A stretch of DNA of 64,000 nt from Fragum whitleyi (lineage: Eukaryota; Mollusca; Bivalvia; Cardiida; Cardiidae). The notes under the pieces are model-generated. The model ran no database searches. It was not told the DNA's origin and worked only from the letters and a program-made list of their open reading frames with translations. Location of the stretch: positions 53,424,017 through 53,488,016 of the forward strand of contig OX411543.1 in the NCBI GenBank assembly GCA_948146395.1, read 5' to 3'. The position numbers were made by a program, and so were the translations under genes. Numbering within the stretch: position 1 is the stretch's first letter; each line of letters begins with the position of its first letter. Shown here piece after piece: positions 24,029-50,200 of the stretch.

Positions 24029-24273
24029 TCACATGTCCCTCTTTTTTTTGTCCACTATGTTGAACACTTTTTTTTTAATTGTCTCCCAGTGCCTTCTCCA
24101 CAAGGCACCCCCCTTGGCCCGGCTCAAAGAAATTGCTTTTAAGCATTCTCTTTGGCCGGGCCCCCTCTTTTCTGCTCTCATATCTAAGTATTCCTGAAAG
24201 TGTTCTTTTATTTCCGACATCTCCTCCGATGTCCACTTTTCTCTTGTAGTCTTTTTGCGCTTCCTCGTCATTC
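24029..24273 (-). CDS. Recombinase-like gene, terminal exon (Myb/SANT-like)
   Basis: The acceptor is TATTTTTCAG, entry phase 1, stop TGA at 24031-24029. It encodes a basic domain: TRKRKKTTREKWTSEEMSEI, RGPGQRECLKAISL, ALWRRHWETIKKKVF. The spaced tryptophans and basic residues suggest a Myb/SANT-like DNA-binding helix bundle. I recall a comparable C-terminal domain in fish and invertebrate relatives. No AATAAA is seen close downstream. Confidence 0.8.
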
Positions 24274-27200
24274 CTGAAAAATATACATGCAAACATAAAA
24301 GCAGCTAAAACAGTTTCATATCCTCTCCTTTGCCTTTACCAAATAACTAGTATTTTCTGTGGTGTTCTTTTTTATTTGGGTCCAAAAATGGTAAAAAGTT
24401 TACAAATTGTTATTTGAACAGAAGATTTTTCATCTACTATTGTACAATACTTTCGCTGGAAGTTGATAAATTTTGCTATAGCAAGTAGACAAATGAAATT
24501 TACTATTCAGCTTAATATCCTCTGAAGGATGCCTTTTTTTAAGGAGGGTATGCTTGGTGCTGCGCTTTTGGTAAGGAGAGCGCCATATTGCAGGCTCAGC
24601 ACCTCCGACTTCTTATCTCCTGGTGGGTCCTCCAATGCTGACAACCGCCGAATGGGCTGTAATGCTAACATTTAAACTCTGAGCACCAAGGAAGGAAGCC
24701 ATTACTACCGTTTTTAAAGTCTTGGTATGACCCGGCCAGGGAATTTAACCCCTACCTTCCGCACCGCATGCGAACGATCTACCACTGAGCTTTGAGACTG
24801 GTGTGAAAAGGATGCCACTGGTAAAGGAAACACCAGTAGTTTCATACAACAAGAGGCCAAAAAATGGGCTTTAATCGCTCACCTGATCTTTTACATCAGT
24901 TCACCTAGTGACCTACTTTTTGACCTGACCATCCACTCTCAAACTCGGTTGAGATATTGTCAAGATCAACATCCTGAGCAGGTTTGATAAAGATTGGGCC
25001 AAATTTTTACCAATTGACCCACTTTTTGATCCAACCAAACTCACTTTCTAAGTTGGTCGAAATATTGTCAAATATTCAAGATCAACATTCTGATCAAGTT
25101 TGATGAAGATTGGGCCATTTGGCCCCTTGAGTGGTAACAAAGTTTTTCTAAGCTTTGTCCTTGTGACCCATTTTTGACACAACCCCACCCACTTTCAAAC
25201 TTGTTTAATGTATTGTCAAGATCAATATCCTGAGCAAAGTTTGATGAAGATTGGGCCCAAATTGTGGCCCTTACTTAGAGTGGTAACAAGGTTTTCCTTA
25301 GATTTGACCAAGTGACCAACTTTGTGACTTGACCCCACACATTCTCCCACTCAGTTAAGATATCGTCAAGATCAATATCCTGTGCAAGTTTGATGAAGAT
25401 TGTCCCAAAGTCTGGCCCCTAGAGTGGAAATAAGGTTTATCTAATAGTTGTCTAGCGACTTACTTTTTGACCCTACCCCATGAACCCCATCCACTCTCGA
25501 ACTCGTTCGAGTTATTGTCTTTATTCTAACGAAAGCTTTTGTTAAAGATAGTCAGTCAGACATGCAGCTTTCACTCTTCTCATGAAATAGTGTTGAATTC
25601 AATCCCAGCAAACAAAAGTGGATTTACCTTCTTTGCTCATCTCTTCTGGAACTTGGTCACACCCAACACCTGTGTCAACTCCACTTCCTACTTCACCTCC
25701 ACTTCCTACTTCACCTCCACTTCCTACTTCACCTCCACTTCCTTCACCTTCATCATCCAGGTCTGCAGACAAAATAAGCTCATTTAAATAGGGTGCAAAT
25801 AACAGGGATCATTTTAGCAGAGCAAATTTATGAGAGAATTATTCCATTTGTCATTTTTTATGAGAGATTTTGAATTTAATGAGAGATTGGTAAATTGGCC
25901 TTTTTTTTTTACAATTTCCAGTGTGAAATTAGAATAATTAGTGCATGTCTCTCAGCACAAATTTGGGGACATTTTCTAGGCTAAAAGGTTTCTGTAAGTG
26001 CTTAAATGGGGTCATATTCTTAAAGTGCTCCCAAGGCTTATAACAATAAAGTCCAACTTTATCATTGTGAGTGCAACACACTTTTAAACAGGTGTCAGTT
26101 GGTGTTAGGGGTAGTTGGCCAGGGCTGTTTCTTGCTCTGAATCACTCAAATTTGAGGTCAGATATGTCACTTATCATGTTTATCAATAGGAGAAAGTTAG
26201 CCTGTTTCAGTGGATTGCATCAAAGTTTATTATTTCTTGGGATTATATTCAGGAGAAACGGGTTAACTTTTCATGGGCATCTTACCCACACAAAAACCAG
26301 GTTTGAAAGATACTGACTACATAAGAAGCAATTCAAATTGGCGGCTGTGTGTATCAGAATTTCGCAAAATGTGGACTGGTTCATAATAATAAACCTTGGG
26401 CCAAAGCATGCGGCTCTATATACACAAACATGTTCCCTGTTTTCCATTCTTTTTTCCCAAAAATTTGTTTGCGAGATTTCTGTATCATTTGAGAGTTTTT
26501 CATGCTTTATAAGGCATTTTTATGCATGAATCTTGCAGTTTCGCAGCCCAAAATGATTCCATACGAGAGGTTGTCCAGCAAACACAGCATACACAAAGTA
26601 AAATTCCTACTTATGCCAAGAAATTGACAGAAGATGGTTCAAATTTTGGATGAACAAATAACATGAGCCCCAATAGCACTGGATTGCCGATGTTAAACTG
26701 CTAAGTCCTAGGACGTGGCCATTTTTGGCCAGGTTAATGTTTGGCCCTTAGTGGTGTTAAAAAACACATTGGACGCCATACTCAACTAAAATCGCCAAAG
26801 AAATAGGATAGTTTCTGCTCCAGCACCGCTTTTTTAAAGTTGGTGTATGAACAGGGACTCCATATTTCTTTGACAAGTAGTCCACATATATTATAGTTTC
26901 TAATCTCTAACCATTTTGATGTTTCTTGTTGCTAGAACCACAAAGGCCTTAAAGAAAGTGTTTGTTTTCTGTAACATGGGTTGCTAGGTCTGAAAGTTTG
27001 TTTTTTAATTTATTTTTTTTTCTGCTCATGCTCAAAATCTTTTCCTGGAAAAACCTTTCTGGAGTTAAATATGCATAGTTGTGTTTATTTGTGCTTATTT
27101 GTGTTTTTGGAAATCATTAAATTTTCAATTTTGAATACATGTTAGACATTTTTAGATATTTTTGTATTTTGGGCTTCTCAAATGCCAATGAAATAATTGA

Positions 27201-30200
27201 GTTGGTGGTCACACCATAGGGTCAGTTGGATTACAGGAAACAACACTTTTTTTTTAGGCCAAACTACTTTTCCTTTGAAAGTAGTATCATGAGACACCTA
27301 GAAACTTAGTGCAAAATCTACCATCTCTACCCATGGGGGGCCTCCCTGGTGTCGTGGTAGCGAGCAGCACTCATAATCCATAGGCCTCCCTCCCCGTGGG
27401 TTCGAATACCGGTCTGACCAAGTTATTTCTTCATGAGGGAATGTCTCCGGGCTGACTAAGGGAAGAACAATGGTTCTACTCAGGTACTTGATTGATAAGT
27501 AACGGAATATCGGGTATCTGAGGTCTTCCTCAATCTGTTACTAGCTGGACATCGCAAATTAACTGAAATACTGTCACATTAAGCCCAATATCAATCTCTA
27601 CCCATGAGGAAAACATACCTTCAAATGTGATGTCGCCTAGCTCCACCCCAGCGTATCTAGACACAACATTCTTTTCTTGCATCAGCATCAATTTAGCAAT
27701 ATCAAGTCTTTCAATTATACCTGATGTGGCCCTGTAGTGAGCCAAGTGAACTTTTTCTGTATGACCCATGTGTTTCAAAAGCCACTTCAACTCATGGTCT
27801 TTAAGTCCCATCACCTTAAATTATATAAAAGTAAAGAGAATGTACAGAAGTTGTTTTACTTAGTCAAAATCATAAGGACTAACCTTTGAACTTGATCATG
27901 ATATCATCAATATTAACATTCTGAGAAAGTTTGAGGTTGATGGGGCCAAAAATATGGCCTCTCAAGTGTAAACAAGAATTTTTCAAGATATGACCTATTG
28001 ACCTTCTTTTTGATCCGACCCCACCTACTTTCAAACTCTAAAAAGTCATCAATATTACCATTCTGAGCAAGTTTGAGGTTTGATTAGGCCAAAAAGGTGG
28101 CCTGTAGAGCGTGAACAAGACCAAGATATGACCTATTGACCTACTTTTTGATCATTTCGATGAAATAAATAGCAAAATCAAGAAAAATAAATTGGCTTAA
28201 TACATTTTGACACAACCAGGTTTTGAACTTGTGATCTCAAGTTTACAGTCAACTATAAGAACCACTACGCTAATACAGCTGTATGAAATTCTGCTTTAGA
28301 TAAAGATGATTACTGACAGGGTTATTTAGAGTTGAATTTGCCATTCTCTGATGTAACATGATGAATGAACCTCTACATTATCATGTGTTAAACCTTAAGA
28401 GCTAGTGTCCATGTTTGAGTGCTTGTACTGAAAATGTAATTAATGCAGGGTAAGAAAGACATTGAACTTTGCACAAAAAAAGTGAATGTTGCATGTCCAA
28501 GAATAATGCCTGCCATCTTAATATGAAAAATAACTAGTACCTGCAGACCCCACTACTGTAAATCAGTATTCCAAGAACCTCTACATTATCATGTGTTTAA
28601 CCTTAAGAGCTAGTGTCCATGTTTGAGTGCTTGTACTGAAATTTGCAATCAATGCAGGGTAAGAAAGACATTGAAGGATTAAATTGAACTTGACATTTTC
28701 CAACTCCAATAATGCAGCTAAAGCAGATTAATGTGCATGTTGAATCCTAAAACTTTGCACAAAAAAAGTGAATGCTGCATGTCCAAGAATCATGCCTGCC
28801 ATCTTAATATAAAAAATAATAACTAGTACCTGCAGACTCCACTACTGTAAATCATTATTCCAAGATCTGAAAAGGATTGTCCATCTCTCAGACACACAGG
28901 AAATTACGACAAGAATAAGAATCAAAACCATCAAAATTAAACACAGAAAAATTGTTGTTAGCATCTGATACACATGTGTATCCATTGTCTCTTCCAATAT
29001 GGTGGACTTGTTATGAGAATGGAATTATGGGTAACCAATTATTTAATATTAAGGGCTAATGTCCATGTTTGAGTGCTTGTGATGAAAATGCAATGCATGG
29101 TATTGTCCAACTTAATCTAGTTTAGTTTAAACCCCAATTTCAATCATAGCTTTATTATAATCCTGAAAATATGGCCTAAACTTGAGCCTTTGATCACAAC
29201 TGTTGGTACATATGGCACTTAACCCTTATCATGCTGAATAAATTTTGGCTTAAAATTGTCATAAAAATCAAACGGCAAAAAGCACTGAAAGTAACAAAAA
29301 GTAGGTCAATTTTCATTTTCTATTGACATCTCTGGTTTGAAAGTGAGAAACAGGTGGTGTAGACTAACATCACACTGCACATATGTGCAGTCTGATGTTT
29401 GTCTATAGCTCCTACCAATGCAGGAATTTTCCGGGTTCAGAATGACAAGGGTTAATACAAACAAGAGGGCCATTGGCCCTATAAGGTGAGCAGCATTGTT
29501 TAAAAAAGATGTCAAAACACTAAAACTCTTAATTTTATATCAATGAATGGCTTAACTAAATTAAAAGAAGTGGAAGAAATTAAGAAAGCAAACATTCTGA
29601 TAAAGTTTCAAGACACAAAAATGTGGCCTCTACGGTGCACACAAGATGTTGACAGATGACTGACGACACACGACGGACAACAGACACAGCGTGATCACAA
29701 AAGCTCACAATGAGCACTTCGTGCTCAGGCGAGCTAAAAAGACCTCCAATTTCTGTTTTAACAACTGTTTGTTTACATACTGCTTTCAAGAAAAGTATAA
29801 TATTCTCAGTTTCTAATACAACTATCCTATTTGCCAGATCATTAAATAATTTCTGGTAAAATGATCTTCAAGAAGCAAAAATTGCAATGGAAGAGAGAAA
29901 ATGGTAGTCCCGTTTTGATTGAGATTGTTCATTGACAGTAGTGAATAATGCTACACTGCCATCGCCCCCTAACGTACATAAACAGCTTAGTCCCAGGGTG
30001 CGCTTGCTAAATTGTATCCCTGTTATACTCACCTGGGAAATAGTGGCTGTGTGTTTTCTAAGGTTTGTAGCAAGAATTCTCTCTGGGAATCGCAGATTTG
30101 ATTCATACTTCATAACATCTAGGGCTGTCCCTGCTCTTACAGGCTCATTCCCTGAAACAGATTTGATTTGCTGATGTATATAATTCATGTTAAAATATAC

Positions 30201-33200
30201 ATAGTCCTGTAGGTAAAAAATAGCCCCCCACACGGAGGCCGGCGCTCAGCTGCTGATATTCTTAGTCTATAAAAAGAGATTATGTTGTCAATGTTATGTC
30301 CCTTAGTCGGGATGTAGCCCTTGTCATGGTGAACTAGTATGCGAACTTTCATTGAGGTAGCTGCAAGAACAAAGAAGTTATGGCCAAGATCCGTAAAGGG
30401 GCATAATTTCGCCATAAAGCATGAGAGTTATGTCCCTTGGTCATTAAGTAGCCCTTATCATGGTGAATAATTATGTGAAGTTTCATTGAGGAAGCTATAA
30501 GAACAAAGAAGTTATGGCCAAGGTTAAAGTTTTTCAAAGTCTGTAAAGGGACATAATTTTGTCAAAAAGCATGGTAGAAGTATGTCCCTTAAACAGGATG
30601 TGGCCCTTGTTATGGTCAACAAGTATGTGAAGTTCATTGAGGTAGCTGCAAGAAAAAAGAAGTAAAGGCCAAACTTTTTTGCTCACACTGCTGAACCCAG
30701 AAGTTATTCTTCTATTGACTTTGCTGCAAATAGTGTAGACCCACTTCAGAGGGCTTTTTTAGGAGGCCTCTGATCCGGATCTGCACTTTTTGCAATGTTT
30801 TGACTATTGATTTTTATTTAACCCAAAATTGAATTTGAAAAGTAAGTCATGTTTGGAACTGGATGGGCTTAGTTGCGAAAATGTTTGACCAAAATTACTT
30901 AAAAAGACCATTAAAATTACCTACAATGATTACTTCATGGTGAGAGTTAACTTGCTTAGCCCTGGAGCAGGGCTAATTTTAGCCCTGTGATCATCCTTAG
31001 AACCATTAGGGGATGATTCTAAAGATATCTTTCCAAAGGGTCATGTAATTTCATAGAATAATAAAGTTATCCTTTCAACAAACCATTAGGTGATTTATCA
31101 TGCAAGATATCCCTTGATCTAATGGTTTAACCCTTATCCTGCCAATCACGACAAATATATGATATTCAAACAGCTTGGATCTAGATGAGGCGCCAAGTAA
31201 CTCAGCACCTCATCCAGGTCTAAGCTGTTTGACACTCAATCGACATTTTCAGCAATTTTTATCAAAATCAGAGCACTTTGACAAGCAGTGGCAGACAAAT
31301 ATTTCAGACAAAAAATAATTTTGCGGGAAAAGAGTTAGTAAACATAAACTGCCAAGACACCATTATCCTGAATATTTTTCTGTCTTTAACTCTTTCAAGG
31401 GAAAAGATACAGCCCCTTGGATCTCAGCTAGCTTTGACAGTTATCTACCTAGAGGCCATTGAAACATTAGGTCATGGCTTATTACCTGTACTTGCAAAAA
31501 CATATTGATTGTCCTTTTTCACCCCAACTGCCTCTCTCACATCTGGGTCAACTAAGTACGCCAAAGGCTTCCGGACTTCCTCTGGGAGCAGGAGTGGGAT
31601 TTTGTTGTTGGACTGCAAATACATAAGAAATGAGCAAAAATGAAAATTTATTCACCCTCATGCATACATATTGCTAAAAAAGAGACAAGGCTGGCAGATG
31701 AAAAATCCATCCACAAATCATTTGGCATAACCACCCCTTTAGTATGAAAATTTAAATTTTAACAGAGTTTACTTTTCAGTGATTTTTTCATGCTTCACTG
31801 AAACATTCAGACCCTTGCTTGATATTTTTATTTTAAAAACTTTGAGGGTTGGAATAGAAATTTAGTTTGATGTACACTCTTTATCCTTTGAAAGTGGGGA
31901 TAGGAGACAAGTGTGAGGTTGGGCACACTCAAACCAGTTGAAACCCCCAGTGGTCAATTTTACCACTGGCCATGCCAAGGTGGTGCTCCTATCCTCCTCT
32001 TTGCCTTTATGTAGTCCTTGTATACTTTTACAACCTTTGTAGGAGCGTTGATGGATGGTTGAGTATATGATTGTGATCTTTTTTTGCTTTGGTGCTAGTT
32101 TGTTCTTTGTGTTGCTTGTCAAAAAATGTGTTCATGGACAGATTTTACAAGATCAAAAGTAGGTCAAAAGTCAAGGTCAAAGTCATGAAAAGTGGACTAC
32201 CCAATTAGACTTCTGTCAAAATATGAATTCAATCCATTGAGGCATAGTTGAGCAATTTTCTCCCTTCTATTGCAAATTTTGCTTTTAGAATATCATTTAA
32301 TCAAAATTTACTTATAATCACTGCAGAAGGTGGAGGCTGTAAAAAGTTGTCCAATACTAAGCCCTTAGTGCAGTTATACTTACTGTCTGGTCTTTTCGGG
32401 ATCAGTTATTGGTGGAATACCGCTTATGTATGCTAGGGGGTGTTGACAGTGTAGCATTATCCATTACTGTCAAGAACAATCTCAATCAAACCGATACATC
32501 CATTTTCTTTATTATATTGCAATGTTTGTTTCGGTGAGATCTCTTCACAATAATTTGATATATAGAGACATTTAACCAAACCACCTCTGGTCAGACAAAC
32601 CACCCACGCCCGCCTGGACATTGCCTTTTTAATGGACAATTTTTTTTATTGAAAAATCTGTCCAAAAAGTAAGTTAGAAAAAAGTTAAATTGACAATGGG
32701 CAATTTGCAATGTCATGCAAATTTTACCACCACCAGGCAATTTCAATCCTAACAAGAGTTGTCCGCGGACAACGTAGCTCGCCCAAACTGCTGCTTGTCA
32801 CAAACAGCGTTTGACCAAAGACAGAAGTTCAAAGTGGTTGTTTTCTAGGTTAATGTCCATGATCTAATATATATCTGTTTGAGAAATAAAGAAATATAAA
32901 AATCTTATTTGTATTAATTGCATATATAAGGTTAGGGTAAAGTGAAAGCCTACAAGCAGATGCGGTTACCAAAGGAATTTCTTTGTATAAACATGAAGTT
33001 TTTCTTTAAAGTTTTACCAAGTCCACAAAAGGTCAAGATCAAGGTCAAATTGGGAAGGGCCTTGGTCTCTGGTGAAAGCCTATCACCTAGTGAGTATGTG
33101 TATGAAGTAATAATGTCCCTGAGTAAAGCATTTAGAAAATATAAGCAAGGTTAAAGTTTTTGGTTAAAGTTTTACTAAGTCCATAAAAGGTCAAGGTCAA

Positions 33201-36200
33201 GGTCGAATTGTCAAGGCCCTTGGTTTCTGGTGAAAGCCTATCATCTGGTGACAATGTATATGAAGTAATGATGTCCCTAGGTTAAAGCATTCAGAAAATA
33301 TAAGCAAGGTTAAAGTTTTAAGTAAAAGAATTTCGGTTAAAGTATTTCTAAGGCCATTAAAGGTCAAGGTCAAATTATCAAGGACCTTGGTCTCTCCCAA
33401 AAGCCTATCAACTAAAGAGTATGTATATGAAGTAATGATGTCCCTAGGTTAGAGCATTAAAAAATATTAGCAAGTTTTTGGTTAAAGTTTTCAGTTAAAG
33501 TTTTTCTAAGTCCACAAATGGTAAAGGTCAAGGTCAAATTGTGAAGGACCTTGGTCTCGGGTGAAAGCCTATCACTTGGTGAGTATATATATGAAGTAAT
33601 GATGTCCCTAGGTTAGAGCATTAAGAAAATATATGCCAGGTTAAAGTTTTTGGTTAAAGTTTTTTGGTTAAAGTTTTTCTAAGTCCACAAAGGGTCAAGG
33701 TCAAGGTCAAATTGTCAAGGACCTTTGTCTCTGATGAAAGCCTATCACCTAATGAGTGTGCATATGAAGTAATGATGTCTCTAGTTTAAAGCTTTCAGAA
33801 AATATAAGCAAGGTTAAAGTTTTTTTGGTTAAAGTTTTTGGTTAAAGTTTTTTTTTGAAAGGGTCAAGGTCACAGTCTAAAGGTCATTTTGACATGGATG
33901 TTGGTCTCAAATGAAAGCCTATGCCCTAATTAGTGTTTCTGTAAAAAATAAAGCCTCTACGATAAATATTGATAGAAATAAAAAACTTTAACCTAATGCG
34001 GACGCCGACACCGACGCCGACACACGAGGGTATGACAATAGCTCTTCCGAGACTTTCGTCCCGGGCGAGCTAAAAATTATCTTAGATAAACAGACAGCAT
34101 GAAATAAAGTTTTACTTACTTTGCCTCTCATTTCCACCAGCTCTTGAGAATGTAGGAGGTTCTTCTCAAGTTTCGTCAACTCCTGACGCAAGCTAAGGTC
34201 AGTCTCATTGACACTTGTTGACCTCTTCTTGTATGTTGGAATACTGAAAGGCAAAGTATAATAACTACAGTCTGGCACACAAAGCTCGACTATTAATATT
34301 CTATACTGTATACGCTATATTGTTCGCTGGCTAAAAAATTTGCAGATTCTTCATTTCATACATTTTACTAACATAAGTGTTCGTGAAATCATCCTCAAGA
34401 AAAAAATTATTATTGTAAGAATCACTTAATTTTTGTGTATTGATCATTTCTTCTTAATCATGTCGATTGACAAGTTCAATCACTTAGTGAAATTAAGTGC
34501 AAACAGGCGATGTGTTACAGTCAAACACAAAGCCAATATCAAGTTTGATGTTATGTTTGTCACAGCTTAACAGTTCGGTGTGAAAACAACAATATAAACT
34601 TTTCCTCGTAGTATGATTTTTAATTCAGACAAGAGGACCATGATGGTCCTTAATCACTCACCTTCGAATAGTTTACTCCTCATTTAGCATATTGATATGA
34701 AAATGATGATCATGAAGATTAAGCAATAATTGTGGCTTCTAGAGCATAAAAAAGAAAATTATCGTTCAGGCCCCTTTTCCCCATATTGCATGGATCCTGC
34801 CCATTCTAGATAGGCTTCATTCTTGTGATCTTACAGTCATTCTGACCAAGTTTCATGGAAATAGGGTCATAATTGTGGCCCCTTGAGTGTAAACAAGAAA
34901 ATTGTCTTTTAGGCCCCTTTTCCAAATGATATGGCATGGATCCTTCCCAATTTTAATAGGGTTCATCCTTGTGACCTGACAAACATTCTGACTAAGTTTA
35001 ATGAAGATTGGGCCATAATTGTGGCCTCTAGAGCGTGAACAAGAAAATCATCATTAAGGCCCCTTTTCCCATGATATCACATTGATCCTTCCCAATTTCA
35101 ATAGGCTTCATCCTTGTGACCTGACAAACATTCTGACTAAGTTTAATGAAGATTGGGCCATAAATGTGGCCTTTAGAGTGTAAACACTTAAATTGTTGAC
35201 GTCCGACGATGCACGACACACGGCGGACATTCAATGATCACAAAATCTCACCTTGAGCACCATGTGCTCAGGTGAGCTAAAAATCAAGCATAAATAGATC
35301 CATATAACCATAGCTTGTCTTTCTCTCAATGAAATTTAGAGGAATTGCTCTTAATTATTTGCAAATAATCCTATTTTCATGATGTCTGCATTTTTTAAAT
35401 TTCTTCAATGCATCTGAATATGGTTTTAATTAGTTAATTAGCCAGATTTTTGTGGAGTCAAATGTAAGTAAAAGGTCACAGGGTTTTTTTCTTTCCCTAT
35501 ATCAGGGTGTGATTGTGTAATTGTGCTGAGAGCAGGGGCCACTGACAATAATACAAAGTGAAGGAGGTCAGAAATCGGGCCAAGTATCAAAAGATGCAGC
35601 ACCAAAAAGTTAGGGCTCATTCTAGGATGACACATGTTGCAGCCTTTCGGTTCATCTGAGACTAAAAATTGCAGCCATAGTTTAAGAAACAGGGACCATT
35701 TAGCATTAATATGCGCATTTTGTTCAATTTTAAATGGGCCATTTGTCTACAAGTTAATAATTTTTTGTAGCCATTTTGAAAAATTTGAAGCTAATGGCGC
35801 ATCCGAGAATGGAACCTGAAAAGTCTAAACCATTTTCCTCGAAGAACGTAGAAACTTATGATGACAAAGGCTAAATATCTTTACTCAAACTATGCTGGAC
35901 CTGGCTACAGTAGACATTTGCAAGTAGAACCCCAATCAGAGGGCTCCTGGTGAAACCCTTTGATCAGGGTCAGCATTGTTTGCCATGGAGGGAGGAATTA
36001 CAAATATTTATAGGGAGAAAACTCATTTACCTTTATTCATAACAGTAAGGGTTAAAGAAATTTAAAAATCCCATTTCTTACTCTAATGCCTCCAGCTCCC
36101 CAGGCCGTCGCCGATTGTAGAGAAGGAGCCTTGCTTCTGTGGTAAGAACCACTTGCCTGTAAGATATGATGGTCTTTTCAAGTTTCAGAGTCTTCAGCTT

Positions 36201-37615
36201 GCCAATTAGGTACTGTGCTAACATGGCAATGTCCTCAGGGTGGGGTAGTTCATTTGCTTTGTTGAATTGCCTTTCTTGAAGCAGTAATGTTGCTTGTTTT
36301 TTCACTTTCAATGTCCATTCATTTTTCAACAGTTCCTCGAACATCTTACTTTCTTTGATTTCTACTTCGTTTCTGCTTTTCACCGCATACGCAATTTTTG
36401 CTGCCAACATTTTCTCCATGTCTTGACCAATTTTAATGGCCACACTTGGATGTTTAAGTTCATTTTCATTTGTTTTCTCACATGCCAAAAGTGCACATTT
36501 TACAAATATGTCAAAGTTCTCTACAATTAAGCATTCAGACATGCTTACTTCTTCCTTTTGAATCTCCTCCCTCACTAAAATCAAAAGGCGTGCAGCCAAG
36601 CGCATTCTAAAGCTTGCATAGTTCTTTCTTTTCAATTTATTTGAGTAAGTGCTTAAAAAGTAAGCCTCTCCCAAAGCACATATTAAAGTGTCCTCGACAG
36701 CCGTCAGTGCAATGTTGTCTTTCTGCATGGACTTGATAACTTCCTTCAGTTCATTGGAAGCATTTCCTTTAATCACGCCCTTGAACACCATGTTCTGGAG
36801 AACAGCTGTCGACAAAGATGTTGTTGATCTTCCTGGGCAGACTGGCGTATGTTTGTTATAATTGTCTTTCAGCACCATCCATTCCGCACATTCTGGGCAG
36901 GAACCATACTTTCTAGAGTCAAAAACTCCTTTCCTTCTCCTGGCCAGTATAAGTTCCCCTTCTTTGCGGCTGCATACTTTCATATTATGTCTATTGTCCC
37001 CTTTATTTCGCAGAAGATTTTGCTTTTTCTTCACCTCTCTGAGCATTTCTTTTTTCGATTCATTATCCAAAAGTTCTGCCCTGCGTTTCATTGTTGTAAT
37101 TTCCTTAACGCTATGTTCTCTTGCATGTTTGTTTTTTAAGTGTGTCTGTATATTTGTGAATAATTCTTCACAAAACAAACAACAATGTACAGTATCATAT
37201 GATCTGTTGTGCTTTGATTTTTCATTATCTTTCTTGTACTTTCTTGTATATATCTTAGAATATCTTACACAACTGTCTATTTCTCCTCTCATTTTGGTAG
37301 TTGGTTTTCTTGATGAAGGTTTTTTTTTCCACCTATCTTCTGTTTCCCTTTTTGTTTGTGAAGCAGCTGTACTTGATCTACTATTTACTAACCCTTGTCT
37401 ATCTCCATCAAAATTCTTTGAGGCTGTAATTTCACCATCTCTATCTTCCTCATCTGACAAATTGTATGAAGATCCAGGCCCAGTATCCATATCTTCCCCA
37501 TCATCACTGGAACTGGACTCACACTCTTTTTCAAACTCATAATCTGGATCTCTGACACTGTCATCACATTCATCCACATCCATCTCTGAATCTGATGTCA
37601 TCTGGAAATGGAGAT
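24029..37615 (-). CDS. Zinc-finger / tyrosine-recombinase-like / SANT-like protein, 7-exon gene
   Basis: Exons (high to low): 37615-36082, 34243-34120, 31612-31486, 30151-30033, 27814-27619, 25762-25628, 24273-24029. All junctions are AG/GT with matching phases. From the ATG at 37601 they encode 821 residues. In order: acidic N-terminus (1-60), C2H2-like motif (C141, C144, H154, H159), C2HC-like motif (C235, C238, H251, C255), helical region, then a tyrosine-recombinase-like domain with RRRPGE (R497-R499), VEMRGK (543-548), TNLRKH (R622), KHMGH (H648) and HYR (Y657). A (GSGGEV)3 linker (~703-720) and a basic WTSEEM...LWRRHW SANT-like end follow. The order fits phage-integrase-type recombinases and a zinc-finger/recombinase/SANT family that I recall from fish and marine invertebrates. 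The usual HxxR histidine is replaced (T619). A host gene derived from a mobile recombinase is the favoured reading; activity is not shown. Confidence 0.8.
24530..24810 (-). mobile_element. tRNA-derived SINE in the last intron
   Basis: On the minus strand 'agctcagtggtagatcgttc' resembles an A-box and 'ggggttaaattccc' a B-box. A conserved body with 'ctcagagtttaaatgttagc' follows. It differs from the (TCAA)n-tailed SINE. No clear target duplication was found. Confidence 0.55.
24849..25530 (+). mobile_element. 5' part of a GCTCACCTG-type composite element
   Basis: The head is ACAAGAGGCCAAAAAATGGG, then TTAATCGCTCACCTG. About five ~140 bp cores follow ('gtcaagatcaatatcctgag', 'agtttgatgaagattgggcc', 'ccactctcaaactcg'). 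It stops about 100 bp before the linker exon without a terminal hairpin. Confidence 0.6.
25628..25762 (-). CDS. Recombinase-like gene, Gly/Ser/Glu repeat linker exon
   Basis: 135 bp, phase 1-1, acceptor TTTTGTCTGCAG, donor GAAG|GTAAAT. It encodes an acidic linker with an 18 bp minisatellite translating to three GSGGEV units, followed by DTGVGCDQVPEEMSKEG. The exon can be skipped without a frame change. The repeat number is likely to vary between alleles. Confidence 0.8.
25763..27334. other. Intron sequence without recognised features
   Basis: This is intron between two recombinase-like exons. No bordered element was recognised. 26680-26770 has a 'ggccatttttggcc' hairpin; 26990-27210 is weakly similar to 45240-45460. 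Confidence 0.35.
27335..27545 (+). mobile_element. tRNA-derived SINE, plus strand
   Basis: 'ctggtgtcgtggtagcgagc' resembles an A-box and 'gtgggttcgaataccgg' a B-box at ~30 bp spacing. The body continues with 'ggaatgtctccgggctgact' and 'cggaatatcgggtatctgag'. It sits about 75 bp downstream (minus sense) of the GH...Y exon. Confidence 0.6.
27619..27814 (-). CDS. Recombinase-like gene, exon with GH...Y active site
   Basis: 196 bp, phase 0 in and phase 1 out, donor GAAG|GTATGT, acceptor TATATAATTTAAG. It encodes VMGLKDHELKWLLKHMGH, then TEKVHLAHYRATSG. The H of MGH and the Y of HYR are the right distance apart for the third histidine and the nucleophile tyrosine of tyrosine recombinases. This is the strongest sign that the domain is not wholly decayed. 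Confidence 0.85.
27890..28260. repeat. Core-repeat fragment and tRNA-like relic
   Basis: 27890-28160 has two or three degenerate cores ('cattctgagcaagtttgagg', 'tgacctattgacc') of the 24849 family. 28195-28265 contains 'gaacttgtgatctcaagttt' and 'accactacgctaatacagct', which read on the minus strand like a decayed tRNA head. Confidence 0.4.
28369..28860. repeat. Local tandem duplication
   Basis: 'gaacctctacattatcatgtg', 'gctagtgtccatgtttgagt', 'gggtaagaaagacattgaa' and 'ctagtacctgcagac' occur in the same order at 28369-28575 and 28576-28860, the first copy lacking about 80-100 bp. A further 'taatgtccatgtttgagtgc' is at 29049. The duplication touches the 3' end of the microprotein reading frame. 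Confidence 0.75.
28842..28985 (-). CDS. Candidate 47-residue single-span membrane microprotein
   Basis: The reading frame runs from ATG at 28985 to TAG at 28842, with a good start context (ACAATGG). The protein begins MDTHVYQM, has one hydrophobic span at about residues 9-30 (LTTIFLCLILMVLILILVVI), then SCVSERWTILFRSW and NNDLQ. Arginines after the span predict a cytosolic C-terminus. A paralogue at 14863-15004 shares the frame; between the copies I count about five synonymous third- or first-position changes and two conservative replacements, as expected under protein-level selection. It lies in the intron of the recombinase-like gene, same strand. It could also be an exon of a larger gene. 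I recognise no family. Confidence 0.5.
   Translation of the reverse strand: MDTHVYQMLTTIFLCLILMVLILILVVISCVSERWTILFRSWNNDLQ
29219..29455. mobile_element. TTAA-bordered MITE, CACATATGTG family
   Basis: It runs from TTAACCCTTATCATGCTGAA to TTCAGAATGACAAGGGTTAA, ~20 bp inverted ends, with the inner TGCACATATGTGCA palindrome. It is in opposite orientation to the copy at 3047-3290. Confidence 0.8.
29461..29736 (+). mobile_element. Short complete composite element, CAGGTGAGCTAA family
   Basis: The head ACAAGAGGGCCATTGGCCCT contains the hairpin GGGCCA/TGGCCC and is followed by AGGTGAGCAG. One short core and a 'gacgacacacgacggacaac' stretch follow, then 'gctcacaatgagcacttcgt' + GCTCAGGCGAGCTAAAA. 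It abuts the preceding MITE. Confidence 0.75.
30033..30151 (-). CDS. Recombinase-like gene, exon with catalytic Arg II (TNLRKH)
   Basis: 119 bp between AAATCTGTTTCAG and CAG|GTGAGT, phase 1 in and phase 0 out. It encodes NEPVRAGTALDVM... and ends ATNLRKHTATISQ. LRKH aligns with the HxLR motif of tyrosine recombinases; the usual histidine position is Thr, so one active-site residue may be missing or supplied by the H of RKH. Confidence 0.85.
30205..30680 (+). repeat. Three tandem ~125 bp 'gttatgtccctt' cores
   Basis: The unit 'gttatgtcccttggtca', 'gcccttgtcatggtgaac', 'ttcattgaggtagctgcaag', 'aacaaagaagttatggcc', 'gtaaaggggcataatttc' repeats about three times. It begins just 5' (minus sense) of the TNLRKH exon. 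Relative: 17586-17820. Confidence 0.7.
31137..31338. mobile_element. TTAA-bordered MITE with GGATCTAGATGAGG palindrome
   Basis: It starts TTAACCCTTATCCTGCCAAT. Inner arms 'cagcttggatctagatgagg' and 'cctcatccaggtctaagctg' are complementary. It ends GCGGGAAAAGAGTTAG. Confidence 0.7.
31486..31612 (-). CDS. Recombinase-like gene, exon with IPLLLPEEV
   Basis: 127 bp between TATTTGCAG and ACAG|GTAATA, phase 0 in and phase 1 out. It encodes SNNKIPLLLPEEVRKPLAYL, then VDPDVREAVG and a YVFAST strand, in keeping with the segment between catalytic Arg I and Arg II. Confidence 0.85.
31830..32135. repeat. Undefined dispersed repeat, copy 1
   Basis: It shares with 46620-46885 the ordered blocks 'gtggggata.gaga.aagtgt', 'gtgctcc.atcctcc', 'ctttgcctttatgtag' and 'tacaacctttgtaggag', and ends 'gctaggttgttctttgtgt'. 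It has no termini that I recognise and no ORF conserved between the copies. Confidence 0.55.
32136..32751. other. Intron sequence without recognised features
   Basis: No exon, bordered repeat or strong structure. Confidence 0.3.
32752..34074 (+). mobile_element. Complete composite element, GCTCGCCC...GGGCGAGCTA family
   Basis: The head ACAAGAGTTGTCCGCGGACA contains the perfect palindrome GTTGTCCGCGGACAAC, then GTAGCTCGCCC. About seven ~150 bp cores follow ('ggtcaaggtcaaattg', 'tggtgaaagcctatcac', 'gaagtaatgatgtccctag'). A 'gacgccgacaccgacgccga' stretch and 'gactttcgtcccgggcgagc' + TAAAA form the end. It ends 45 bp from a recombinase exon donor. Confidence 0.8.
34120..34243 (-). CDS. Recombinase-like gene, exon with VEMRGK motif
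   Basis: 124 bp between TTTGCCTTTCAG and AAA|GTAAGT, phase 2 in and phase 0 out. It encodes IPTYKKRSTSVNETDLSLRQ and a helix ending LVEMRGK. The K/R of RGK lies where the beta-hairpin lysine of tyrosine recombinases is expected. A composite element starts only 45 bp into the following intron. Confidence 0.85.
34629..35280 (+). mobile_element. Complete composite element, CTCACCT...CAGGTGAGCTAA family
   Basis: The head ACAAGAGGACCATGATGGTC forms the hairpin AGGACCA/TGGTCCT. Three or four ~125 bp cores carry 'aggccccttttcc' and 'gtttaatgaagattgggcca'. The end is 'tctcaccttgagcaccatgt' + GCTCAGGTGAGCTAA. It lies in the intron after the large recombinase exon. Confidence 0.8.
35281..36081. other. 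Intron sequence without recognised features
   Basis: No supported exon or repeat. Plus-strand 'tttctttccctatatcag' at ~35489 looks like an acceptor but leads to no open frame with a donor. Confidence 0.3.
36082..37615 (-). CDS. Recombinase-like gene, large exon (acidic N-terminus, zinc fingers, catalytic Arg I)
   Basis: The acceptor is TTGTGTTTTTCAG at 37616, entry phase 1, and the donor TTAGA|GTAAGAA leaves phase 2. If translation starts inside this exon, the ATG at 37601 (MTSDSEMDVDECDD) is the likely start. If upstream exons are coding, the frame enters as D-LHFQ-MTSDSE. The RRRPGEL motif near the 3' end fits the first catalytic arginine of tyrosine recombinases. The preceding helices (EWTLKV..QATLLLQERQFNKANELP) would be the core-binding domain. 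Confidence 0.85.
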
Positions 37616-39186: not shown

Positions 39187-39545
39187 AACCTTCACCAAGA
39201 GGACGCCCACTTTGGTGATGACAATAGCTCATCAATTTTTTTTTCAAAAATCAGATGAACTAAAAATCTTTCCCCTGGCTTTTCGTTTGTACTGTGGTAT
39301 GTGCTTCCTATGAATACTTTACATCCCCACTTTTTATATTAACGTGTACCTTCTTTCTTTTCTGTCCATTCTTTGCAAAAGTTAGACCCTGTGATCCTTG
39401 AATGATTACTAAAGACATTTATCTGTTGCACATTTACCACATATTATTAACAATGCACAAAAGAATAGTTAACAACTTTTAAAGTAGAATCAGGGGTATG
39501 ATACAACTCTAACAAACCTACACTAAAATAGATATGCATCTGCAA
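39187..39545. other. Unassigned interval between element and exon array
   Basis: Nothing recognised. If the array is spliced to the recombinase exon at 37615, this is intron. Confidence 0.3.
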
Positions 39546-39667
39546 AATCAGACTCTCATAGATATTCAGCATCTGTCCAGCATAATGGGCTATTTAATAA
39601 ACCCACAAGGATGGACAATGCAAAGCCCTTTAAGATGGACATGATTCTTGTTAAACAGACAGTATAC

Positions 39668-42600
39668 CTGTAACACTTGGAGCTTGTACAGACGTGAAGA
39701 GCTGATTGTCAGACTGGATTGGATCCTTCCTAATGTTGTCAATGGTATGTGTCTCGTCTGGGACAGACTTGTTATCCTCAGTGATACTGTCAATGGTATG
39801 TGTCTCGTCTGGGACAGGCGTGTAGATGCCAAGATCTGCAAGAGAAATGAAGAGTTTCCATCATTCACAGGTAATTGAGCCATTTTGCTCACTCACCAAG
39901 CAATGTAGACCAAGACATTGTTTGCAAAGCCCTTAGAAAAGCCAGCTTTAAGATATTTGTATGAAATTAATTGAAACAATCAGGCTTACTGAGAACACTT
40001 TTGGTGTCAGCAGATCAATGTAAAATTGGCTACCCTTAAGATTCCCAAATTCAGACTCTCATAGATATTCAACATCTGTCCAGCATAATGGGCTATTTAA
40101 TAAACCCACAAGGATCATGGATGGACAATGCAAAGCCCTTTAAGATGGACACGATTCTTGTTAAACAGACAGTATACCTGTAACACTTGGAGCTTGTACA
40201 GACGTGAAGAGCTGATTGTCAGACTGGATCGGATCCTTCCTAATGTTGTCAATGGTATGTGTCTCGTCTGGGACAGACTTGTTATCCTCAGTGATACTGT
40301 CAATGGTATGTGTCTCGTCTGGGACAGGCGTGTAGATGCCAAGATCTGCAAGAGAAATGAAGAGTTTCCAACATTCACAGGTAATTGAGCCATTTTGCTC
40401 ACTCACCAAGCAATGTAGACCAAGACATTGTTTGCAAAGCCCTTAGAAAAGCCAGCTTTAAGATATTTGTATGAAATTAATTGAAACAATAAGGCTTACT
40501 GAGAACACTTTTGGTGTCAGCAGATCAATGTAAAGTTGGCTACCCTTAAGATTCCCAAATTCAGACTCTCATAGATATTCAACATCTGTCCAGCATAATG
40601 GGCTATTTAATAAACCCACAAGGATGGACAATGCAAAGCCCTTTAAGATGGACATGATTCTTGTTAAACAGACAGTATACCTGTAACACTTGGAGCTTGT
40701 ACAGACGTGAAGAGCTGATTGTCAGACTGGATCGGATCCTTCCTAATGTTGTCAATGGTATGTGTCTCGTCTGGGACAGACTTGTTATCCTCAGTGATAC
40801 TGTCAATGGTATGTGTCTCGTCTGGGACAGGCGTGTAGATGCCAAGATCTGCAAGAGAAATGAAGAGTTTCCATCATTCACAGGTAATTGAGCCATTTTG
40901 CTCACTCACCAAGCAATGTAGACCAAGACATTGTTTGCAAAGCCCTTAGAAAAGCCAGCTTTAAGATATTTGTATGAAATTAATTGAAACAATCAGGCTT
41001 ACTGAGAACACTTTGGGTGTCAGCAGATCAATGTAAAGTTGGCTACCCTTAAGATTCCCAAATTCAGACTCTCATAGATATTCAACATCTGTCCAGCATA
41101 ATGGGCTATTTAATAAACCCACAAGGATGGACAATGCAAAGCCCTTTAAGATGGACATGATTCTTGTTAAACAGACAGTATACCTGTAACACTTGGAGCT
41201 TGTACAGACGTGAAGAGCTGATTGTCAGACTGGATCGGATCCTTCCTAATGTTGTCAATGGTATGTGTCTCATCTGGGACAGACTTGTTATCCTCAGTGA
41301 TACTGTCAATGGTATGTGTCTCGTCTGGGACAGGCGTGTAGATGCCAAGATCTGCAAGAGAAATGAAGAGTTTCCAACATTCACAGGTAATTGAGCCATT
41401 TTGCTCACTCACCAAGCAATGTAGACCAAGACATTGTTTGCAAAGCCCTTAGAAAAGCCAGCTTTAAGATATTTGTATGAAATTTATTGAAACAATCAGG
41501 CTTACTGAGAACACTTTGGGTGTCAGCAGATCAATGTAAAGTTGGCTACCCTTAAGATTCCCAAATTCAGACTCTCATAGATATTCAACATCTGTCCAGC
41601 ATAATGGGCTATTTAATAAACCCACAAGGATGGACAATGCAAAGCCCTTTAAGATGGACATGATTCTTGTTAAACAGACAGTATACCTGTAACACTTGGA
41701 GCTTGTACAGACGTGAAGAGCTGATTGTCAGACTGGATCGGATCCTTCCTAATGTTGTCAATGGTATGTGTCTCGTCTGGGACAGACTTGTTATCCTCAG
41801 TGATACTGTCAATGGTATGTGTCTCGTCTGGGACAGGCGTGTAGATGCCAAGATCTGCAAGAGAAATGAAGAGTTTCCAACATTCACAGGTAATTGAGCC
41901 ATTTTGCTCACTCACCAAGCAATGTAGACCAAGACATTGTTTGCAAAGCCCTTAGAAAAGCCAGCTTTAAGATATTTGTATGAAATTAATTGAAACAATC
42001 AGGCTTACTGAGAACACTTTGGGTGTCAGCAGATCAATGTAAAGTTGGCTACCCTTAAGATTCCCAAATTCAGACTCTCATAGATATTCAACATCTGTCC
42101 AGCATAATGGGCTATTTAATAAACCCACAAGGATGGACAATGCAAAGCCCTTTAAGATGGACATGATTCTTGTTAAACAGACAGTATACCTGTAACACTT
42201 GGAGCTTGTACAGACGTGAAGAGCTGATTGTCAGACTGGATCGGATCCTTCCTAATGTTGTCAATGGTATGTGTCTCGTCTGGGACAGACTTGTTATCCT
42301 CAGTGATACTGTCAATGGTATGTGTCTCGTCTGGGACAGGCGTGTAGATGCCAAGATCTGCAAGAGAAATGAAGAGTTTCCATCATTCACAGGTAATTGA
42401 GCCATTTTGCTCACTCACCAAGCAATGTAGACCAAGACATTGTTTGCAAAGCCCTTAGAAAAGCCAGCTTTAAGATATTTGTATGAAATTAATTGAAACA
42501 ATCAGGCTTACTGAGAACACTTTTGGTGTCAGCAGATCAATGTAAAGTTGGCTACCCTTAAGATTCCCAAAGTCAGACTCTCATAGATATTCAACATCTG

Positions 42601-44368
42601 TCCAGCATAATGGGCTATTTAATAAACCCACAAGGATGAACAATGCAAAGCCCTTTAAGATGGACATGATTCTTGTTAAACAGACAGTATACCTGTAACA
42701 CTTGGAGCTTGTACAGACGTGAAGAGCTGATTGTCAGACTGGATCGGATCCTTCCTAATGTTGTCAATGGTATGTGTCTCGTCTGGGACAGACTTGTTAT
42801 CCTCAGTGATACTGTCAATGGTATGTGTCTCGTCTGGGACAGGCGTGTAGATGCCAAGATCTGCAAGAGAAATGAAGAGTTTCCAACATTCACAGGTAAT
42901 TGAGCCATTTTGCTCACTCACAAAGCAATGTAGACCAAGACATTGTTTGCAAAGCCCTTAGAAAAGCCAGCTTTAAGATATTTGTATGAAATTAATTGAA
43001 ACAATCAGGCTTACTGAGAACACTTTGGGTGTCAGCAGATCAATGTAAAGTTGGCTACCCTTAAGATTCCCAAATTCAGACTCTCATAGATATTCAACAT
43101 CTGTCCAGCATAATGGGCTATTTAATAAACCCACAAGGATGGACAATGCAAAGCCCTTTAAGATGGACATGATTCTTGTTAAACAGACAGTATACCTGTA
43201 ACACTTGGAGCTTGTACAGACGTGAAGAGCTGATTGTCAGACTGGATCGGATCCTTCCTAATGTTGTCAATGGTATGTGTCTCGTCTGGGACAGACTTGT
43301 TATCCTCAGTGATACTGTCAATGGTATGTGTCTCGTCTGGGACAGGCGTGTAGATGCCAAGATCTGCAAGAGAAATGAAGAGTTTCCATCATTCACAGGT
43401 AATTGAGCCATTTTGCTCACTCACCAAGCAATGTAGACCAAGACATTGTTTGCAAAGCCCTTAGAAAAGCCAGCTTTAAGATATTTGTATGAAATTAATT
43501 GAAACAATCAGGCTTACTGAGAACACTTTTGGTGTCAGCAGATCAATGTAAAGTTGGCTACCCTTAAGATTCCCAAAGTCAGACTCTCATAGATATTCAA
43601 CATCTGTCCAGCATAATGGGCTATTTAATAAACCCACAAGGATGGACAATGCAAAGCCCTTTAAGATGGACACGATTCTTGTTAAACAGACAGTATACCT
43701 GTAACACTTGGAGCTTGTACAGACGTGAAGAGCTGATTGTCAGACTGGATCGGATCCTTCCTAATGTTGTCAATGGTATGTGTCTCGTCTGGGACAGACT
43801 TGTTATCCTCAGAAATACTGTCAATGGTATGTGTCTCGTCTGGGACAGGCGTGTAGATGCCAAGATCTGCAAGAGAAATGAAGAGTTTCCAACATTCACA
43901 GGTAATTGAGCCATTTTGCTCACTCACCAAGCAATGTAGACCAAGACATTGTTTGCAAAGCCCTTAGAAAAGCCAGCTTTAAGATATTTGTATGAAATTA
44001 ATTGAAACAATCAGGCTTACTGAGAACACTTTTGGTGTCAGCAGATCAATGTAAAATTGGCTACCCTTAAGATTCCCAAATTCAGACTCTCATAGATATT
44101 CAACATCTGTCCAGCATAATGGGCTATTTAATAACCCACAAGGATGGACAATGCAAAGCCCTTTAAGATGGACACGATTCTTGTTAAACAGACAGTATAC
44201 CTGTAACACTTGCAGCTTGTACAGCCGTGAAGAGCTGATTGTCAGACTGGATCGGATCCTTGGTAATGTTGTCAATGGTATGTGTCTCGTCTGGGACAGA
44301 CTTGTTATCCTCAGTGATACTGTCAATGGTATGTGTCTCGTCTGGGACAGGCGTGTAGATGCCAAGAT
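39668..44368 (-). CDS. Ten tandem symmetric exons encoding 56-residue PDETHTID repeats
   Basis: Exon-like blocks of 168 bp lie at 39668-39835, 40178-40345, 40681-40848, 41184-41351, 41687-41854, 42190-42357, 42693-42860, 43196-43363, 43699-43866 and 44201-44368. Each has a polypyrimidine tract with CTCTTGCAG before it and ACAG|GTATAC after it, and each is phase 1 in and out. The translation starts DLGIYTPVPDETHTIDSITE, repeats VPDETHTIDNI once more inside, and ends SVQAPSVTG. No copy has a stop in this frame. The frame continues into the exon at 37615 and back into 44785-44859; the other frame open within the block (phase 0) meets stops on both sides. The product would be ~560 acidic, Thr-rich, probably disordered residues. 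Transcription is not shown; the blocks could also be 5' UTR exons. Confidence 0.6.
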
Positions 44369-44423
44369 CTGCAAGAGAAATGAAGTTTCCAACATTCACA
44401 GGTAATTGAGCCATATTGCTCAC
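44201..44423 (-). CDS. 5'-most array unit: alternative in-frame start
   Basis: In the outermost unit a 2 bp deletion joins the exon frame to upstream sequence that is open from an ATG at 44423 (MSNMAQLPVNVGNFISLADL, then GIYTPVP). An alternative first exon could start here. Other units have ATGs upstream of the acceptor in the same frame (MVSEQNG...), so this may be coincidence. Confidence 0.3.
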
Positions 44424-44520
44424 TCACCAAGCAATATAGACCAAGGTGTTGTTGGCAAAGTCCTTAGAAAAAAGCCAGCTTCAGGACATTTGTATGAAAT
44501 TGACTGAAACAATCAGGTTT

Positions 44521-45560
44521 TTTTAAGTCTAAGTGTGAAACATCATTGTTGGTACGCATGAATATGTTCTTTGACAGAAATTAATTACAAAACACTGTCA
44601 TTTGCATTAGCAGGACTAATATTGTCTTTCCTCTGTTTTCTTCAACTTGTATATAAATTATGATAAGTGTTTCCTGTTTCTTGCCAAATAAGACAAACAT
44701 GTCATTCAACTTAACCAATGAAGATATTTACAGGTATGCCAAGACATGCAGTCTTTTTATTTTTTTCGAACTTTCATAACTTACCTCCTGTCACCGCATA
44801 TCCCAGGTCTGTTTTGAAGCATTCCAAAGTCTTTAACAGATTTTTTTTCTCCAAAATCCCTGTAAAAAATTGAAAGGTGTTTGTGACCCAATGCCAACAT
44901 GAATTTGGTGCGATTATATAATTTTTTGCATCATATTATCCACAGTATAAGTTTGCTTAAAATTTGACTAAGCTCTTTATAACATGTAGAATTCTACATT
45001 TGGTGCATTAAAGATTATGCAACACAATCCAAGACTTAGTGAAGAATTGTTAAAAGTGATTGTGTAGGTTCAATATTTGAAAAGCATGCATTAAACTCAA
45101 TTTTTTTTATTATGGCTCAAGAAAAAGACAGGGGTAATTTTTTTTTGAAAAATCTTGGTTGTCCTGCAATATGTAGAAAGAAGGTAGCCAATAAAATTCT
45201 TGCCCTGCAATATAGACAAAGAAGGCCAAAACACATGCAGGAGTATAGGACAACCACATTTTTTAACCTCTGAAAGATTTTTACTGGCAAACCTTTTATA
45301 GAGTTATATCTGCAAAGATGTTCTTCAATTTTCAAACAGAAGCTATTTTGAGAGATAAAATCAACAATTATTTTCATTTTAATTAAATCTAGACATTTTC
45401 TGACATGTTTAGTATTCCTCGGCTTCTTAAATGCCAATACAAAAATTGGGTTGGGGCGTAAAAAAGTAGGGTGGGTCAGGTAACAGAAAACTAACTCTTT
45501 TTTTTGTCTAACAGGTTGGAATAGGATCAGTTTTATCTACACTTTCCTTTAACATGTTCA
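44521..45560. other. Unassigned interval around the 44785 exon
   Basis: Apart from the candidate exon, nothing is recognised. 45118-45437 holds a 106-residue minus-strand open frame without domain or splice support. Confidence 0.3.
44785..44859 (-). CDS. Candidate exon upstream of the array
   Basis: 75 bp between CAATTTTTTACAG and GGAG|GTAAGT, phase 1 in and out. It translates to GILEKKNLLKTLECFKTDLG, then YAVTG. The amphipathic leucine spacing is helix-like and loosely recalls a death-fold helix pair, but that is weak. It joins in frame to the array exons. The phase-2 frame is also open here but runs into a stop within the first array exon. Confidence 0.5.
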
Positions 45561-48060: not shown

Positions 48061-48268
48061 AGATTTGCCTGTTTTTGGTCAATATTTAGCTTTTGTGACC
48101 TAGATATGCAGTTGAATGGACCACTGGGCCATCCCTGAAAGAACCATGAGTTATGACAAATGGTACCTTACTTTTTGCAGTTTGAGCTATTTCTTGATAT
48201 CCTTGGCAGAAAGGAGTCACTTTTCTAACCCTTAAAATGATCCATAAACCATGTAAACACAGTTGCTA

Positions 48269-48583
48269 TCAAACAAAGAGATTGATTGATTGATTGAATG
48301 GGGTTTTACGCCGCTTTCAACATTATTTCAGTTATATCGCGGCGGCTGGAGCACCTAACAATGGATTCCTGGTTTTTCTCCAACCAGTACTACCATTACA
48401 TCCTTTCCTAGCCTCCAGCTGCTATCTCACATAGGTCTACGATTATCGACCCATTGGTGAGAGACAAATAGTCGGAAAGAACGAGTGCCGCGGCCGGGGA
48501 TCGAACCCGTGCGAATTTAGACCCCTGGATTAGAAGTCCGGCGCGCTACTAACTGCGCTAATGCCGCGGCTCAAACAAAGAGA
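48269..48583 (-). mobile_element. tRNA-derived SINE with 13 bp target-site duplication
   Basis: Same family as 20245-20526. The minus-strand head contains 'gcgcagttagtagcgcgccg' and the B-box GGTTCGATCCC; the tail is (TCAA)n. TCAAACAAAGAGA flanks it at 48269-48281 and 48571-48583. It is internally very similar to the other intact copy, suggesting recent activity. Confidence 0.9.
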
Positions 48584-50080: not shown

Positions 50081-50200
50081 CAGTAGTAGGTCTGATCACT
50101 TTTGGAAAACACCTTCCATCTTCCTTCACACACTTCTTTAACCTCAACAGGCCAAAGCAGGCCTCGTGGGAGGCCTGCTATCTTGGTCCAACCAAACTTC
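50081..50200 (-). CDS. Candidate exon, frame unresolved
   Basis: A 120 bp block lies between AAATTTCAG and CTG|GTGAGT. The frame open throughout (phase 2 in and out) reads KFGWTKIAGLPRGLLWPVEV, then KEVCEGRWKVFSKSDQTYYW. The phase-1 exit that would match the exon at 44859 reads SHEACFGLLRLKKCVKEDGR, then CFPKVIRPTTG, but has a TAG 24 bp after the acceptor. It may be a 5' UTR exon, part of another transcript, or use a second acceptor (GATAGCAG) just past that stop. Confidence 0.4.

Follow-up and report, generated by a model that had tools for sequence, protein, structure and literature searches.

Can a gene change the length of its protein by multiplying one whole exon together with its intron? 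The question is raised by a 64,000-nucleotide stretch of the bivalve Fragum whitleyi (GenBank assembly GCA_948146395.1, contig OX411543.1, positions 53,424,017 to 53,488,016 of the forward strand; hereafter the window), which carries a tandem array of ten units of about 503 bp, each with one 168-bp block that looks like an exon. Judged from sequence, the array is most probably a coding, exon-level tandem repeat in a bivalve-type host gene, in which ten acidic 56-residue linker repeats would join a PWWP-like N-terminus to a recombinase-like core. We favor a coding reading because several characteristics coincide: a symmetric block length, an open phase-1 frame, splice sites on both sides, a phase that fits the neighboring modelled exons (U upstream and B downstream), and repeats in most relatives. 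The array was delimited by alignment of its units and the candidate exons by a block scan:

39544..44517, minus strand: whole array of ten 503-bp units, the last partial
44201..44368, minus strand: repeat exon R1
43699..43866, minus strand: repeat exon R2
43196..43363, minus strand: repeat exon R3
42693..42860, minus strand: repeat exon R4
42190..42357, minus strand: repeat exon R5
41687..41854, minus strand: repeat exon R6
41184..41351, minus strand: repeat exon R7
40681..40848, minus strand: repeat exon R8
40178..40345, minus strand: repeat exon R9
39668..39835, minus strand: repeat exon R10

The first-pass annotation of this DNA had described ten 168-bp blocks with canonical splice sites and a common frame, and this description holds. 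From 44368-44201 to 39835-39668 on the minus strand, all ten blocks are exactly 168 bp long, with the acceptor TTTCTCTTGCAG directly 5′ and the donor GTATACTGT directly 3′ (CAG/GTATAC, exon/intron). Each is open in the frame in which the first codon is split after one base, so that the exon is symmetric (phase 1-1). The same annotation spoke of near-identical 503-bp units; the near identity stands, while the spacing is less uniform than that, with start-to-start distances of 502, 503 (seven times) and 510 bp and a last unit truncated to 441 bp. A 62-bp stretch (columns 451-512 of the unit alignment) is present in nine units and absent after the last one and, by eye, before the first. The block translates into 56 residues, DLGIYTPVPDETHTIDSITEDNKSVPDETHTIDNIRKDPIQSDNQLFTSVQAPSVT, which themselves hold a partial duplication with a period of 17 residues. 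At the protein level R3-R10 are identical, R2 differs at one residue and R1 at three.

These blocks could also belong to an intronic satellite, in which case the 503-bp array would be an ordinary tandem repeat within the U-B intron and the block a cryptic exon or one that is seldom used. Tandem arrays abound in the window, and ten near-identical copies of a block count as one observation rather than ten. The openness of the block is also weak evidence by itself, because two of the three minus-strand frames are open. What the satellite does not readily explain is that the block combines a symmetric length with an open phase-1 frame, a splice site at each end and a phase match with U and B, a combination for which the window offers no equal candidate elsewhere. 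A control screen for blocks of 100-260 bp, a multiple of three in length, open in phase 1 and with splice sites that equal or surpass the unit's own returned exactly the array's ten; it passed none on the plus strand of the array and none on the two strands of the remaining window. Its thresholds were derived from the unit, and the other exons modelled for the gene, which have weaker acceptors, would fail it. Charge points the same way. In relatives with at least 100 repeated residues, the region N-terminal to the core is net negative in 28 of 28 cases (median -0.131 per residue), and the window unit carries -0.143 per residue in the phase-1 frame and +0.143 in the other open frame, so it matches the acidity of the family in the phase-1 frame only. 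Repeats also lie at the same protein position in 31 of 39 homologues (numbered with a P below), although none were detected at the site in P0037, P0012 and P0014. On balance, an intronic satellite is improbable.

The coding reading gains from the gene that can be modelled around the array, an intact-looking multi-exon gene on the minus strand from 50.2 to 24.0 kb. Its exons chain in phase from U through the array and exons B-H to a stop codon at about 24.03 kb, and the model was extended upstream to exons P and Q. The modelled exons, with the evidence used for each, are:

50081..50200, minus strand: exon P, PWWP-like N-terminal piece, phase 2 to 2 (homology, splice sites, phase)
48172..48230, minus strand: exon Q, 59 bp, phase 2 to 1, tentative (loose phase screen and resemblance by eye)
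44785..44859, minus strand: exon U, 75 bp, phase 1 to 1, helix LEKKNLLKTLECFKTDLGYA (in phase with the array)
36082..37615, minus strand: exon B, phase 1 to 2, acidic stretch, zinc-finger-like motifs and the N-terminal half of the recombinase-like core, to NRRRPGELEAL (phase chain, alignment)
34120..34243, minus strand: exon C (phase chain, alignment)
31486..31612, minus strand: exon D (phase chain, alignment)
30033..30151, minus strand: exon E, ending at TNLRKHTATISQ (phase chain, alignment)
27619..27814, minus strand: exon F, HMGHTEKVHLAHYR with the candidate catalytic tyrosine (phase chain, alignment, residue columns)
25628..25762, minus strand: exon G, phase 1 to 1, acidic, a variable stretch in relatives (phase chain)
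24030..24273, minus strand: exon H, with the stop codon and a basic end that looks Myb/SANT-like by eye (phase chain, alignment)

The downstream part of the model is the firmest. The core aligns with ten homologues across junctions B/C, C/D, D/E and E/F; junctions F/G and G/H fall within a variable, gapped stretch of the alignment, and P0008, P0013 and P0016 lack parts. Exon G contains a second coding tandem repeat (25675-25743; 18-bp unit, 3.8 copies, 98% matches) that encodes GSGGEV. Upstream, exon P was found when the N-terminus of P0027 was compared with the whole window (tblastn E 1.6e-5, phmmer 7e-6; next best 3.0 and 4.1). Pfam assigned no family to the exon P piece or to the corresponding piece of P0007, and its PWWP profile matched the P0005 and P0002 pieces at E 0.55 and E 6, both far below the cut-off, with Agenet slightly better for both; the N-terminus is PWWP-like only and falls short of a Pfam PWWP assignment. 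By eye, a PWWP-like start is also seen in LOC117690845 and LOC111129143 (introduced below), and the helix of exon U in many relatives, resembling KKNTLECFLEDLKWA of P0002 and KKETLKCFLSDLEWA of P0007. Exon Q, with an AAG acceptor, comes from a loose screen that gave six candidates compatible with both phases, and a stricter screen did not list it; it was picked by eye for its resemblance to the sequence of P0007 and P0027 between the PWWP-like piece and the helix. The gene model is weakest at exons Q and U, and no exon upstream of P with a start codon was found.

The interpretation in the first-pass annotation holds in part. Its reading of the blocks as symmetric exons of one gene is well supported by comparison: the array joins in phase to U (44859-44785) and to B (37615-36082), and most homologues carry repeats at this position. 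Two protein searches gave at least 41 distinct homologues (17 in the first and 34 in the second, 24 of them new); the searches scored 7995-7997 candidates sharing most words within a restricted length range, so the list of relatives is incomplete. The C-terminal part of the gene aligns with uncharacterized, mostly bivalve proteins. Of 31 homologues with a species name, 27 are from bivalves (oysters, scallops, mussel, Ruditapes, Mercenaria, Dreissena and Pinctada), and the others are from a sea urchin, a fish, a beetle and an ant (one each). In a tree, the window protein stands beside P0037 (Mercenaria) with weak support, and its grouping with P0010-P0012 as well is well supported. In the sea urchin protein, P0017, a SET domain (Pfam E 8e-16) takes the place that the PWWP-like piece has in some bivalve members, and 20-residue repeats of its own and then the shared core come after it. 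Here again a chromatin-type N-terminus is joined to repeats. Three of the homologues represent large clusters (P0025, P0007 and P0004, with 99, 25 and 21 member sequences, some of them named isoforms), which is consistent with many splice forms or alleles. Some homologues bear precomputed Pfam labels, such as PF27049 on P0005, P0021 and P0038.

How general are repeats at this site? They were scored by a lag-identity measure on the region before the core in 39 of the 41 homologues, the other two being P0016, which has no N-region, and P0038, which is visibly repeated but whose core start could not be located; self-BLAST of the homologues had returned no repeats. With at least 60 residues in tandem repeats as the threshold and periods up to 150 residues, repeats were found before the core in 30 of 39 proteins (in P0022 marginally, with 63 residues at 0.60) and after the core start in 2 of 39, and in none of 195 shuffled sequences (five per protein, at these periods only). 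Widening the periods to 260 added P0029 to the first count and a core repeat of P0022 to the second, which brought them to 31 and 3 of 39. Among the eight proteins without repeats before the core (P0001, P0012, P0014, P0015, P0037, P0039, P0040 and P0041) are the three from the fish and the insects, and several are short or incomplete. Main repeat periods in relatives range from about 11 to 106 residues, with 163 in P0029.

The position is shared; the units are not. Links above 60% identity join 12 of 30 proteins into five groups, which leaves 23 unit kinds, a count that could fall if weaker links such as P0013-P0020 (36%) are true kinship. All-against-all BLAST of the N-regions at 1e-10 was rejected as a classifier of units: it lumps 28 of 30, probably through acidic composition. 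P0018 and the group P0004/P0005/P0006/P0021 are sister clades with close cores and different units, and therefore repeats at this linker seem to have been born, homogenized and replaced repeatedly. Two further comparisons concern whole units. First, P0027 and P0028 (isoforms X9 and X10 of Crassostrea gigas LOC117690845) are of equal length and differ only in unit order, ABABBABABA versus ABABABBABA. Skipping a different A exon would give both orders, so whole units of this gene look like cassette exons, in isoforms that are database models. Second, the four closely similar oyster entries P0005, P0021, P0038 and P0006 contain the anchor of another unit type 5, 7, 5 and 1 times, respectively (the last two look partial), which suggests turnover of unit number in a relative, with allelic, paralogous, isoform and model origins not separable.

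Several observations weigh against the idea of an exon-level coding array. A protein search focused on the array (exon U, six units and the start of B) gave no match at E <= 1 among 7995 candidates scored. Exon U is not significant alone: a helix profile built from 13 hand-picked homologue segments placed it at E 3.1, fifth of twelve listed fragments. Among the close tree relatives, N-terminal repeats were not seen in P0037 and P0012, and the units of P0010 and P0011 are of other kinds. In P0011, P0029 and P0032, repeats and core occur in one listed protein that ends at the exon B boundary, and the P0010 and P0036 proteins run slightly beyond it, as expected of single reading frames; in these five the repeats probably lie inside one exon rather than in an exon array, and the exon array is probably one of at least two repeat forms in the family. 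Finally, the mean pairwise difference within the array is lower in exon (0.0095) than in intron (0.0175), yet substitution-variable columns (8 of 168 in exon versus 21 of 344 in intron; Fisher p 0.68) leave purifying selection unsupported in a comparison that has no statistical power.

The differences among units speak to the age of the array. Units 2-10 differ from one another at 0-7 sites and unit 1 differs from the others at 17-21 (gaps excluded). Unit 4 stands at 5 differences from each of its neighbors, units 3 and 5, which are themselves identical, and certain variants switch back and forth from unit to unit (column 126 reads T T A T A T T A T A). Few differences and identical non-neighboring units argue for recent expansion or gene conversion, as first proposed for this array. 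The variant pattern is the kind of trace expected from block duplication by unequal exchange, or from conversion between units, and edge unit 1 may be the most diverged because exchange homogenizes the middle units. Near identity, complete between units 3 and 5, is also what would be expected if an assembler had expanded or collapsed one or a few units and the true number were different. We give such an artefact hardly any weight: private substitutions and indels in units 1, 2, 4, 7, 9 and 10 mark distinct copies, and the existence of the repeat would survive a wrong unit count.

What kind of protein would carry these repeats? One homologous protein is predicted to adopt a tyrosine-recombinase fold. 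In an alignment of 42 rows, with columns that we take by motif to be the catalytic ones, the window protein has all five candidates (Arg I, Lys, Arg II, His III and Tyr). Arg I, the third of RRR, is kept in 39 of 42 rows, and the others, over rows with a residue in the column, as follows: Lys 32/35, Arg II 31/31, His III 29/31 and Tyr 29/30. The His of the HxxR motif (of the tetrad R-H-R-Y) is absent, being Thr in the window protein and T in 17, N in 7, S in 4 and V in 3 of 31 rows, and because it is replaced the family is not classed as an active recombinase. Pfam integrase and DUF3504 profiles gave no match at E 0.1 in 15 homologues, a result compatible with kinship to DUF3504. A recombinase-like core also brings up the possibility of a gene copy that died recently or is mobile, with a functionless array, as does the presence of several family members per genome (four repeat groups in Magallana/Crassostrea gigas: P0002/P0025, P0005/P0006/P0021/P0038, P0008/P0009 and P0027/P0028). 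Such a copy would have to combine open reading in all modelled exons, across about 26 kb with large introns, with retention of the R, K, R, H and Y residues, and mobile recombinase elements are usually far more compact than this gene. A dead or mobile copy is very improbable. An oyster recombinase element of the DIRS type is on record (PMC3537659).

Under the preferred reading of a coding exon array in a host gene, the predicted protein would run from the PWWP-like N-terminus through a short helix, ten acidic repeats and zinc-finger-like motifs to the tyrosine-recombinase-fold core and a basic C-terminus, a nuclear-looking arrangement. With phase 1 at both ends of every repeat exon and an intron of its own for each, the frame would hold for any copy number: unequal crossing-over, conversion or skipping of a unit in splicing would add or remove 56 residues and leave the frame intact. 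The repeats would then most likely form a long, flexible, negatively charged spacer of changeable length, set between an end that contacts chromatin and a core that binds DNA, which is the best-supported working model; we infer this spacer role, the crossing-over mechanism and the splicing of all ten exons. A bolder version is tentative and, taken whole, unlikely: a bivalve family of spliced, possibly DNA-cutting recombinase-like proteins in which one linker repeatedly spawns unrelated repeats, here by exon multiplication, with exon number varying between individuals and driving fast change, perhaps in a conflict with mobile DNA.

Known systems offer partial parallels. The kringle IV type 2 region of human LPA is a coding variable-number tandem repeat (VNTR) whose unit of about 5550 bp has exons of 160 and 182 bp and encodes a kringle; about 40 alleles are reported (PMC7613587; PMC11462820). 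As described for LPA, the tandem unit comprises whole exons and introns, the exons are nearly identical (98-100%), and unit number sets protein length (PMC7613587). In our model the Fragum unit likewise holds a complete exon and intron, the exon being symmetric with the frame kept, as in an exon-level coding VNTR. There are differences: LPA has two kringle exons per unit, whereas here a single 168-bp exon lies in 503 bp, the repeat is acidic and unfolded-looking, and it is known from one sequence only. Mucin-type coding VNTRs also vary in number but lie within one large exon (PMC13345508), whereas here each unit is its own exon in the model. For the core, a comparison can be made with DUF3504 genes such as ZMYM2 and QRICH1, animal genes in which a domain derived from Crypton tyrosine recombinases is fused to other domains and for which loss of the catalytic tyrosine and second arginine is reported (PMC3212892); the present family retains both. 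Uncharacterized bivalve proteins such as Crassostrea gigas LOC117690845, C. virginica LOC111129143, the Mytilus trossulus "centromere protein F-like" and the Pecten maximus "titin homolog" have the core and the repeat position in common with the window protein and differ in their units.

If all ten exons are spliced, the locus would be a compact natural example in which a protein changes length over evolution in steps of whole symmetric exons, beside a conserved core. The stronger point is the view across the family, with 23 unit kinds at one linker in 30 proteins, which turns the question of why one site keeps growing repeats into one that genomes from across the bivalves can test. This view also indicates an animal gene family that combines a tyrosine-recombinase fold with retention of most catalytic residues in a spliced gene. 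LPA already exemplifies the principle. The gene family, the repeat turnover at one site and the mostly retained recombinase residues in a spliced gene appear undescribed, and no description of the family and its repeat turnover was found among the titles and abstract openings of the open-licence PMC literature searched. An exact 29-base pattern of the unit had no matches in the viral_contigs and genome_contigs collections, in neither of which bivalves are expected.

The rest of the window holds other features. A plus-strand open frame of 141 amino acids (56964-57389) has no Pfam match above the cut-off. Tandem arrays with units of about 145-176 bp lie at 1298-1999, 3845-4508, 9342-10005, 20571-21510, 22653-23868, 33006-33852, 34712-35186, 38394-39098, 45567-46331 and 47309-47946, several of them, by eye, near the motif TTTTAGCTC; by their likeness to bivalve elements with central repeats, they are perhaps parts of mobile element families. 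Two transfer RNA (tRNA)-like copies on the minus strand (20449-20521 and 48489-48567), both recognized by Rfam and only the first of them listed by ARAGORN, are each followed by a similar tail with AATCAATCAATCAA and look like a tRNA-derived short interspersed nuclear element.

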